64,000 bases of DNA, taken from contig CANKZR010000001.1 in the NCBI GenBank assembly GCA_947488625.1, forward strand, positions 992,001 through 1,056,000, in the 5' to 3' direction. The number at the start of each line of letters is the position of its first letter. The first letter of the stretch is position 1. The position numbers were made by a program, and so were the translations under genes. The stretch comes from an uncultured Sphingomonadaceae bacterium. GTDB lineage: Bacteria; Pseudomonadota; Alphaproteobacteria; Sphingomonadales; Sphingomonadaceae. Positions 4,410 to 7,359 of the stretch are shown in pieces. The notes beneath the pieces are model-generated. The model had not been told where the DNA came from, did no database searches, and saw only the letters and a program-made list of their open reading frames with translations.

Positions 4410-5162
4410 ATGGCTGGAGAACTTAGAGACAATCGCGGTCGCGGTGACGCGGAATGGGGCCTTCCCCCGATCCATCCGGAAGGGCGCAAATTCGGGATGA
4501 TCGCAGTAGCCATCGCGCTGGTGGTGCTGCTGATCTTCGACTGGGAATTGCTGGGATGGCCTTTGTTGGCGCTGTCCGCTGGCGTATTCGCATTCTTTCG
4601 CGACCCGGAACGCGTCGTGCCTCAGGGAGAAAGACTTCTCGTCTCGCCCGCTGACGGGCTTGTTTCACTGATTACGCAGGTACCTCCACCGGTCGAGTTA
4701 CAGCACGATACGGAAGATGGCGGTCGCGGGCTGGGGACAGAGCCGGTCATGCGCGTTTCCATTTTCATGTCCGTGTTCGACGTTCATATCAATCGCTCCC
4801 CGATCGCCGGAACGATCAGGCGCATCATTTACATTCCCGGTCGCTTCATGAATGCCGATCTCGACAAGGCCAGTGAAGAGAACGAGCGGCAGCACGTGCT
4901 TGTAGCGCGCGCCGACGGTACGCCGATCGGAATTACACAGATTGCCGGTTTGATCGCGCGGCGCATCGTGCCGTTCGTGAAGCCGGGGGACATCGTCGCC
5001 GCCGGTCAGCGTGTCGGCCTGATCCGGTTCGGCAGCCGCGTAGACGTGTATCTGCCCACTGGAACGGAACCCAGGGTGCTGGTTGGCCAGCGCGTGATTG
5101 CAGGCGAAACCGTGCTGGCCGAAATCGGTACGGCGGGATTGCTGGAAGGAGTAAGCCAATGA
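4410..5162 (+). CDS. psd: Phosphatidylserine decarboxylase
   Basis: Converts phosphatidylserine to phosphatidylethanolamine at the inner membrane. It is 250 residues long, the short type with a minimal GS processing site. The self-cleavage pair is G208-S209 in [11 protein letters not shown], where Ser becomes the pyruvoyl group. The supporting catalytic residues D82 (SPADG) and H126 (FDVHINRSP) are present. Hydrophobic segments at about residues 30-62 anchor the protein. The stop overlaps the pssA start by 4 bases (ATGA), which makes translational coupling likely and keeps substrate production and use together. Confidence 0.96.
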
Positions 5163-6118
5163 GGCCGGGTGAGGACGACTTGCACGAATACGACGATGAA
5201 GAGACGGCACCTGCAGGTCCCGCCTGGCTTGGGCCGAAGGCTAGCGAGCATGAACGAGTGACCCGGTCGCGCGGGGGCAAGGGACTGTCGCTGCGCGCCG
5301 TGCTTCCCAACGCGATCACCGCTGCCGCGCTCTGTTCCGGTCTCACCAGCATCCTGTTTGCTATCGGGGGGCAGTGGGAACAGTCGGTATTTGCCATGAT
5401 CCTGGCCGGTATTCTCGACATGATGGACGGGCGTATCGCCCGGCTTCTGAAGGCGCAATCGCGCTTCGGGGCCGAGCTCGACAGCCTTTCGGATTCGGCT
5501 AGCTTCGGCATCGCGCCTGCGCTGGTCCTTTACATCTGGTCGCTTGCCGAAATGCCGCGCTTCGGTTGGCTGGCGGCGCTGGCCTATGCCATCTGCTGCG
5601 CGCTGCGTCTGGCGCGCTTCAATGCGCAGATCGACGTGGAAGACCAGCCACACAAGTCCGCCGGCTATCTTACTGGCGTTCCGGCGCCGATGGGCGCGGG
5701 CTTTGCCTTCATGCCCATGTACCTGTGGCTTGCAACCGGAGAAGAAATTTTCCGCGATCCATGGCTCGTCGGACCGTGGGTTATCGCGATTGCCGTATTG
5801 ATGGTCTCCAATCTCGCCACGCCAAGCTGGAAGTCGGTCAGCCCGTCAGGGGACTTCAAGCTGGCCTTCATTGCGCTTGCAGGACTGCTGGTGGGTGGTT
5901 TGCTGATCGAGACATGGTGGACGCTGGTGCTGATTGGCGTCGTCTATCTGGCCCTGATCGCATGGTCGGTGGTCGGCTATGCCAAGATCAGGCGAGCGAA
6001 AAATGCGAAGGCAACGGGCGATGGCGAACCCGACGAGCAGGCTACGCCGCCAGCAGGGCGAAAGCCTCTTGCGGTCGACGAAGTGGACGAGGCGCTGTCA
6101 CGACCGCGCGATCGATAG
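5159..6118 (+). CDS. pssA: CDP-diacylglycerol--serine O-phosphatidyltransferase
   Basis: Makes phosphatidylserine from CDP-diacylglycerol and serine. It is 319 residues with a charged N-terminus and about eight membrane segments. The CDP-alcohol phosphotransferase signature D87-x2-D90-G-x2-A-R94-x9-G104-x3-D108-x3-D112 is intact. It starts inside the psd stop codon (ATGA). The C-terminal tail (about residues 280-319) is hydrophilic and low in complexity, and its last 77 bases overlap a small gene on the other strand. Confidence 0.96.
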
Positions 6119-6242
6119 CGGCCAGTTCGCTACGGATTTCCCGCCAGCGGACGAGGCCGTAGCGGATCGACGCGTGGCAGGAGAGCAGCGAAGCTGCCGC
6201 CACGAAGCCGAAGAATGCCGAAATTGCGATTGCTATTGTCAT
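6042..6242 (-). CDS. Small membrane protein behind LexA-type boxes
   Basis: A 66-residue protein starting at ATG 6242. Residues 2-24 form one hydrophobic helix (AIAISAFFGFVAAASLLSC), followed by a basic, amphipathic stretch ([18 protein letters not shown]) and an Arg/Pro-rich tail. I do not recognise a named family, though short proteins of this shape occur in related genomes as far as I recall. The start lies 33 bases from the nearest of three GTTC-N7-GTTC boxes, so it is placed as an SOS-regulated gene would be. Its 3' end overlaps pssA by 77 bases. A membrane-anchored SOS division inhibitor, analogous to Caulobacter SidA or DidA, is an inference from size, topology and promoter only. Confidence 0.55.
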   Translation of the reverse strand: MTIAIAISAFFGFVAAASLLSCHASIRYGLVRWREIRSELAAIDRAVVTAPRPLRRPQEAFALLAA

Positions 6243-6274
6243 CGTTCAAGCCCCAACTCTGTGTCGCGTCATCT

Positions 6275-6289
6275 GTTCCTGTTGCGTTC
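6275..6289. promoter_or_regulatory. LexA-type SOS box 1 (GTTC-N7-GTTC)
   Basis: GTTC at 6275-6278 and 6286-6289 with a 7-base gap match the alphaproteobacterial LexA consensus. It is the box nearest to the divergent small membrane protein (start 6242). Confidence 0.7.
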
Positions 6290-6292
6290 TAT

Positions 6293-6307
6293 GTTCCACT
6301 TTCGTTC
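6293..6307. promoter_or_regulatory. LexA-type SOS box 2 (GTTC-N7-GTTC)
   Basis: GTTC at 6293-6296 and 6304-6307 with a 7-base gap. It begins 18 bases after box 1 begins. On the minus strand it falls just after a TTGACC -35-like hexamer, so a repressor bound here would block a promoter reading toward 6242. Confidence 0.7.
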
Positions 6308-6326
6308 CGCGTGGTCAAGCGTTTTT

Positions 6327-6341
6327 GTTCTGGCTGTGTTC
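6327..6341. promoter_or_regulatory. LexA-type SOS box 3 (GTTC-N7-GTTC)
   Basis: GTTC at 6327-6330 and 6338-6341 with a 7-base gap. Three exact pairs within 67 bases is far beyond chance for a 4-base word. rpsB starts 200 bases further on, so an effect on rpsB is possible but less likely. Confidence 0.7.
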
Positions 6342-6452
6342 TCGCTTGAGAATTTGAGACTGGATTTCCCCGTCCACCTCCGCTAAAGGCGCGACCGCCT
6401 GAAGGGCAGAAGCGATTCCCGTTTCGGCTCGCCCAGGCAAATCCACATGGAA

Positions 6453-6490
6453 GGCACTGACATACCGGTGCCGCCCGAGGGAGAACTCCC
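6453..6490 (+). promoter_or_regulatory. Candidate structured leader of rpsB
   Basis: Two short hairpins precede rpsB. GGCAC (6453-6457) pairs with GTGCC (6468-6472), and GGGAG (6479-6483) pairs with CTCCC (6486-6490) across a 2-base turn. Many bacteria regulate rpsB-tsf through S2 binding to the mRNA leader. I cannot show that this structure belongs to a known leader family. Confidence 0.3.
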
Positions 6491-6540
6491 AAGGGCTGGT
6501 TCCCCGTCTTCCAGAGGCTTAACCGGAAAGGAATTTTCTT

Positions 6541-7359
6541 ATGGCGGCTCCTACCGTCACGATGCAGCAATTGATCGAGGCCGGCGCACACTTCGGCCAC
6601 CAGACCCACCGCTGGAACCCGCGCATGAAGCCGTATATCTTCGGCAGCCGCAACGGTGTGCACATTATCGACCTGTCGCAGACCGTGCCCCTGATGGCGC
6701 GTGCTCTTGACTTCGTCTCTTCCACCGTGCGTGCAGGCGGCAAGGTCCTGTTCGTCGGCACCAAGCGCCAAGCGCAGGAGCCGATTGCACAGGCAGCACG
6801 TTCGTGCGGCCAGCACTTCGTCAACCATCGCTGGCTGGGCGGCATGCTCACCAACTGGAAGACGATTTCGCAGTCGATCAAGCGCCTGAAGGCTCTGGAA
6901 GAGCAGCTGGCTGGCGACACCTCGCTGATCACCAAGAAGGAAGTCCTGCAGCTAACGCGTGAGCGTGACAAGCTGGAACTTTCGCTTGGTGGTATTCGCG
7001 ACATGGGCGGCATTCCCGACGTGATGTTCGTGATCGACGCCAACAAGGAAGACCTCGCCATCAAGGAAGCCGGCGTTCTCGGCATCCCCGTGATCGGCGT
7101 GCTCGACACCAATGTCGATCCTTCCGGCATCGCTTTCCCGATCCCCGGCAACGACGATGCCAGCCGCGCCGTGCGCCTGTATTGCGATGCAGTGGCCAAG
7201 GCCGCCAGCACCGGTACGACCGAAGGCGTGGTGGACTCCGGTGCCGACATCGGCGCGATGGACGCTCCTCCCGCAGAAGCTGCCGTTGCCGAAGCTGCAC
7301 CGGCTGCCGAAGCTCCGGCTGAAGAAGCCAAGGCTCAAGAGACCAAGGCCGACGCCTGA
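6541..7359 (+). CDS. rpsB: 30S ribosomal protein S2
   Basis: Structural protein of the small subunit that also helps bring S1 to the ribosome. It is 272 residues. The N-terminus has the usual [20 protein letters not shown] pattern and the core matches S2 along its length. The last 40 or so residues are an Ala/Glu/Lys-rich tail ([13 protein letters not shown]), a common extension in this lineage. The ATG at 6541 follows a GGAAAGGAA ribosome site. tsf follows 112 bases later, the near-universal arrangement. Confidence 0.98.

Follow-up and report, generated by a model that had tools for sequence, protein, structure and literature searches.

A predicted small membrane-protein family with a LexA-type operator in Sphingomonadaceae and its possible role in slowing division after DNA damage

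Small membrane proteins that are induced by the SOS response and stop septal synthesis are an established kind, described for SidA, YneA and SosA (PMC4211646, PMC13396833, PMC6851548). SidA of Caulobacter crescentus has 29 aa, is SOS-induced and is described as interacting with FtsW (PMC4211646, PMC12700426), and loss of LexA in Caulobacter is reported to filament cells through SidA (PMC12700426). DinQ is described as a toxic single-helix SOS peptide (PMC3567139). Among the best open-licence matches listed in our literature searches, titles and abstract openings contained nothing on the gene considered here and no description of how sphingomonads stop dividing after DNA damage.

The gene lies in a genome of the Sphingomonadaceae, in what we call the window, the whole 64 kb stretch of DNA that was analysed. 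It is a frame of 66 aa with an ATG start on the minus strand (6042..6242), exactly as the preliminary description had it, with a weak Shine-Dalgarno sequence upstream of ATG 6242; its product is predicted to have an N-terminal membrane helix, a basic amphipathic segment and a C-terminus ending in FALLAA. It had been placed in the spacer between pssA and rpsB, which holds for part of the frame; the rest overlaps the last 77 bp of pssA (5159..6118, plus strand), which encodes a CDP-alcohol phosphatidyltransferase (Pfam PF01066, E 2.4e-23) and to which the small ORF is antisense. Among relatives of this pssA in named genomes, 4/10 were Aurantiacibacter species (79–90% identity), so that the genome probably belongs to Aurantiacibacter or a near relative. 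The divergent neighbour on the other side is rpsB (6541..7359, plus strand; Pfam PF00318). The small ORF had no Pfam match, and protein searches for relatives, in each of which 8000 candidates were scored, returned mostly unnamed proteins. The named ones were 'hypothetical protein' or 'uncharacterized protein', apart from P0065, labelled as an ABC transporter, and one that bears a coordinate string, in keeping with the earlier statement that the gene is unannotated. That the gene partly coincides with one for lipid synthesis on the opposite strand may explain this lack of a name. An Rfam Pseudomon-Rho match over the small ORF on the same strand scored 23.1 bits against a threshold of 45 and was taken as chance. 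In the rpsB leader (window 6420-6543, plus strand), we observed an apparently covarying helix of 10 pairs around a conserved ACAUACCGGUGCC, each pair being formed in 101–110 of 110 family sequences. The Rfam rpsB family scored below threshold on this stretch (21.1 bits against 40), and this leader may serve S2 autoregulation in sphingomonads.

By the pattern of its codon changes, the 66-residue minus-strand frame is a real protein-coding gene. The window protein was matched in 23 of 25 genus genomes (E < 1e-3), always without internal stops; the two genomes without a match (G005 and G006) are 69% and 74% complete, and rpsB is cut by a contig end in G006. All 23 genus loci have rpsB alongside and carry two or three exact boxes of the kind described below. 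Over the 41 codons outside pssA (40 in L045), dN/dS lay well below 1 in 14/14 pairs (0.07–0.39), and for the two shifted frames it exceeded 1 in 26 of 28 comparisons. Selection on the frame apart from the pssA overlap, together with the predicted N-terminal helix, bears out the proposal of a genuine small membrane-protein gene.

Three exact GTTC-N7-GTTC boxes had been reported upstream of the gene, and a motif scan of both strands recovered them as the only exact matches in the window. The principal putative LexA-type box (6293..6307, plus strand; the minus strand reads GAACGAAAGTGGAAC) keeps its position across the family, while a second (6275..6289, plus strand), close to the inferred transcription start, and a third (6327..6341, plus strand), upstream of the −35 element, occur in part of the genus. 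Taken alone, a count of three is unremarkable: shuffled windows held a mean of 1.65 matches, and at least three were found in 28 of 100 shuffles. What is not chance is their clustering within 67 bp and their conservation. The genome as a whole contained 106 matches against 81 for a backwards control, so most matches elsewhere in it are due to chance. Ahead of the genome's single lexA, a box (GTTCCTTATTCGTTC) lies about 35 bp before the matched region, and the region upstream of recA carries another (GTTCCACTCTTGTTC). Twenty box regions were picked, A+T-rich spacers being favoured, and 10 frames from them were scanned, which does not amount to a regulon census; eight of the 20 lay at or before recognisable repair genes, namely lexA, recA, uvrA, uvrD, imuAB (imuB from its Pfam match, imuA from its position), a radA-like ATPase and two radical-SAM proteins. 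In several cases the box lies within the longest frame and ahead of a likelier start. Apart from one box in a vsr frame, the remaining picked regions showed no evident SOS gene in what was scanned. The two radical-SAM genes have LexA-type boxes at their starts (L113, C1:1134900-1137300; L115, C1:1422700-1425100) and are candidates for uncharacterised SOS repair genes. An internal box was also seen in a Vsr endonuclease frame (L124, C3:3000-5400), whose neighbouring frame resembles a DNA methylase by eye. In the anaerobic transcriptome described for S. granuli, lexA, recA, radA and imuAB rise (PMC6472365).

The promoter predicted for the small gene has a −35 element TTGACC (6313..6318, minus strand), identified by direct reading and by the TTGAC kept in family loci, and a putative −10 element AACATA (6290..6295, minus strand), a weak match to TATAAT that belongs to a GAACATA conserved in the family consensus. 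The two are separated by 17 bp, and the box at 6293-6307, whose first base lies 11 nt past that of the −35, takes up most of the spacer and extends into the −10. Across 71 single-box family loci, the minus-strand consensus reads GCTTGACA, about 4 nt, then GGAACAAATAG-n-GAACATA; TTGAC stands upstream of the box in 68 of them and 9–12 nt from the box start in 62. Additional boxes are present in 13/84 family loci, the window counted. With these predicted positions, the box lies between the two elements, the arrangement typical of repression by occlusion.

The box is conserved well beyond the genus. We located rpsB in all 119 family genomes (96 genera) and surveyed 110 of these loci, leaving out G010 (in the genus set), G052 (contig end) and G144, G045, G140, G095, G091, G079 and G047, which are among the most divergent. 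With pssA upstream of rpsB, as in 89 stretches, a box in the same orientation was present in 85 and one in the opposite orientation in a single case; the count in 200 first-order Markov samplings averaged 0.79 and never exceeded 4. Stretches without pssA had a box in 3 of 21. A small frame with an N-terminal helix was obtained at 82 of the 110 loci, the frames having been chosen by box and helix (86 picked, 82 kept after L169, L192, L203 and L208 were dropped as wrong or doubtful). Outside the genus, identity to the window protein is 11–34%, and the genus profile matched 36/199 family genomes (E 0.01), many of these matches being spurious; place, box, phase and shape carry the case for family-wide orthology to a greater extent than sequence does. 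For the 26 genomes without a usable first-pass frame, a profile search gave convincing copies in 10, that of G126 being the weakest, and no copy in 16, at a limited sensitivity (the known positive G088 scored 7e-4). Weak profile matches in G107, G089 and G291 (L271, L270 and L269), without box or pssA, were judged unconvincing, as were those in G061, G059, G274 and G038 by E-value alone.

The small gene is kept in G041, G134 and G109 with half-sites one base off. We observed that at L264 and L276 (G041 and G134, which belong to one genus) one half-site of the box reads GTTT beside a retained small gene, and LexA control is perhaps weakened in that genus. G134 also holds a possible second copy of the small protein (L263, C1:2218405-2218635), without box or pssA. 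Beyond the family, the stretches fetched for 28 class-level loci and for 14 from the order's other families contained no pssA match, and profile searches of 16 other-family genomes of the order (one match, E 0.048) and 11 class-level genomes (weak matches in two) yielded no convincing copy. As far as tested, the small gene appears confined to Sphingomonadaceae.

The predicted membrane helix spans residues 3-22 (IAIAISAFFGFVAAASLLSC; 6177..6236, minus strand), by hydropathy and direct reading. The 82 family frames encode proteins of 66–111 residues (median 79), all lacking a second helix; outside the genus, frames were selected for having the first helix, and the genus proteins, which were found by sequence, also have it. 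The charge ahead of the helix is zero in 75/82 frames, and after it averages +6.8 (range −1 to +13). A basic tail predicts a cytoplasmic C-terminus, and the helix would thus probably insert with its N-terminus on the outer side and the Arg-rich tail facing the cytoplasm. On these comparisons, the frames represent a conserved family of predicted small membrane proteins with a LexA-type operator.

In Caulobacter, both CtrA and SsrA-tagged proteins are marked by an Ala-Ala at the C-terminus. The tmRNA tag of the present genome is ANDNEALAIAA, and the window protein ends in ALLAA, its last four residues (LLAA; 6045..6056, minus strand) resembling the end of that tag. Ala-Ala endings were found in 76 of the 82 frames (three alanines in 56), and within the genus in only 16/25. 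Since this end is antisense to a conserved [VI][KR]RQR stretch of pssA, we considered that it might be a mere by-product of the latter. With the window itself (L081) excluded, 80/81 frames stop opposite this stretch, defined by a loose pattern; within the genus, at least the window's own stop lies off it. The second codon of the stretch is Lys or Arg in 77 of 81 (L225 of G006, where rpsB is cut by the contig start, was ignored in the codon counts). Where it is Arg, it is AGG in 46/46, compared with AGR in 37 of 672 Arg codons elsewhere in pssA (P 5e-50), a count partly conditioned in that the stop itself demands A in the first position. The third codon, when CGN, is CGG in 60/65 against 226/635 elsewhere (P 8e-20); both P values are overstated, the genomes being related. 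The choice between CGG and CGC, both Arg codons in pssA, decides whether the small protein has Ala or Gly. No bias was seen in the codon for its third-last residue (CAG in 39/48 against 177/211 elsewhere). The by-product idea was rejected in part, the choice of CGG over CGC being synonymous for pssA, and selection seems to act on the last two residues of the small protein. The Ala-Ala end is, with roughly equal chance either way, a ClpXP-type degron, which a cytoplasmic C-terminus would suit.

Motif, promoter position, coding selection, conservation and the linkage of box and gene were all established computationally. The explanation that we favour for them as a whole, at a probability of about 0.6, is a LexA-repressed small single-helix membrane protein that most likely slows septum formation. 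In the undamaged cell, LexA would sit on the box between −35 and −10 and block the minus-strand promoter. After damage, RecA would trigger LexA cleavage and the small gene would be transcribed, the end of the transcript running antisense to the end of pssA. The 66-residue protein would then be made, its helix inserted and its Arg-rich tail left in the cytoplasm, where it would most likely slow septum formation in the manner of SidA or YneA, before being cleared through its C-terminal Ala-Ala by a ClpXP-type protease. The division-inhibiting role, which draws on analogy with those proteins, stands at about even odds. The SulA domain (PF03846) had no match in the genome or in the small ORF, while the E. 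coli control was matched. On this explanation, the small gene would be one defined division-arrest candidate for a whole family, with a promoter and start codon assigned; it is also very small and held in place by the lipid-synthesis gene that it overlaps on the other strand. More speculatively, it might encode a family-wide checkpoint protein, with its tail inside and a tmRNA-like degron, by which one LexA switch halts septum synthesis and throttles phospholipid synthesis until ClpXP clears the block; we consider this extended form quite unlikely.

Two other readings concern the boxes themselves. They lie 214–266 bp upstream of the rpsB ATG and might serve rpsB (or pssA), with the small frame incidental. 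However, five genomes have the gene and an exact box antisense to pssA where rpsB is not adjacent. The distance to rpsB is 1.3 kb for G117, 2.7 kb for G128, 10.8 kb for G124 and 161 kb for G077, and G122 has rpsB on a separate contig. Gene and box being kept together there, the box belongs to the small gene, and an adjacent rpsB is not required for the association. Near rpsB, moreover, an exact box within 600 bp was found at 0/14 loci from other families of the order and at 1/28 class-level loci outside the family, and TTGAC and the −10 face the other way; control of rpsB is largely refuted and has next to no probability. It is also very improbable that the boxes bind a repressor other than LexA: the same type of motif precedes lexA, recA and other repair genes of this genome, and the LexA motif published for alphaproteobacteria is GTTC-N7-GTTC (PMC3323433), as the preliminary description had already recognised. 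We infer that LexA very probably binds upstream of the small gene.

What LexA would control there can be read in two further ways. The transcript might matter more than the protein, as an SOS-induced antisense RNA that lowers pssA expression and hence phosphatidylethanolamine synthesis. The small frame does overlap the end of pssA in one reading phase, by 38–119 bp, in 30/30 genus loci (among which L040 and L042-L045 repeat already-counted genomes or are very close to them), a single phase is likewise seen in 78 of 80 frames from the family, and the gene and pssA remain together where rpsB is not adjacent. Against this, protein-level selection is clear outside the overlap, and the probable copy in G126 (L266; E 3.6e-4, a weaker match, with rpsB 4.8 kb off) has a box, while the 3.2 kb fetched there contain no pssA, and we consider regulation by the transcript improbable. 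TisB is an E. coli SOS membrane peptide with a small antisense RNA. A LexA-controlled peptide of the TisB/DinQ sort, which would perturb the membrane and lower membrane potential and growth with no divisome block, fits the single hydrophobic helix followed by a basic tail and the SOS box, and the convergent pssA could supply an antisense RNA. The proteins here, however, are longer than such peptides, and their tail is kept in composition and end; membrane perturbation is therefore possible and rather unlikely.

Returning to the LexA-repressed protein that slows septum formation, its nearest counterparts can be compared by description. With the E. coli peptides DinQ and TisB it shares a hydrophobic nature and LexA regulation, here predicted; those are shorter and have small antisense RNAs. 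DidA of Caulobacter crescentus (71 aa) is similar in size, has one helix and is likewise encoded by a frame overlapping an annotated neighbour. The preliminary description had cited it as an SOS division inhibitor, which was mistaken, since DidA is described as damage-induced in an SOS-independent manner, through DriD (PMC4211646); the LexA-type box predicted here argues against such LexA-independent induction. SidA is closer in its control, being a tiny inner-membrane protein of an alphaproteobacterium under LexA-type regulation, which for the present gene is predicted, but it has less than half the length and no room for a long basic tail. YneA of Bacillus and SosA of Staphylococcus are also small and single-helix, and are described as SOS-induced division inhibitors with proteolytic turnover. 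Their C-terminal parts lie outside the cell, where CtpA-type proteases act on them, whereas the tail of the sphingomonad protein is predicted to lie inside and to close with an end like that of the tmRNA tag.
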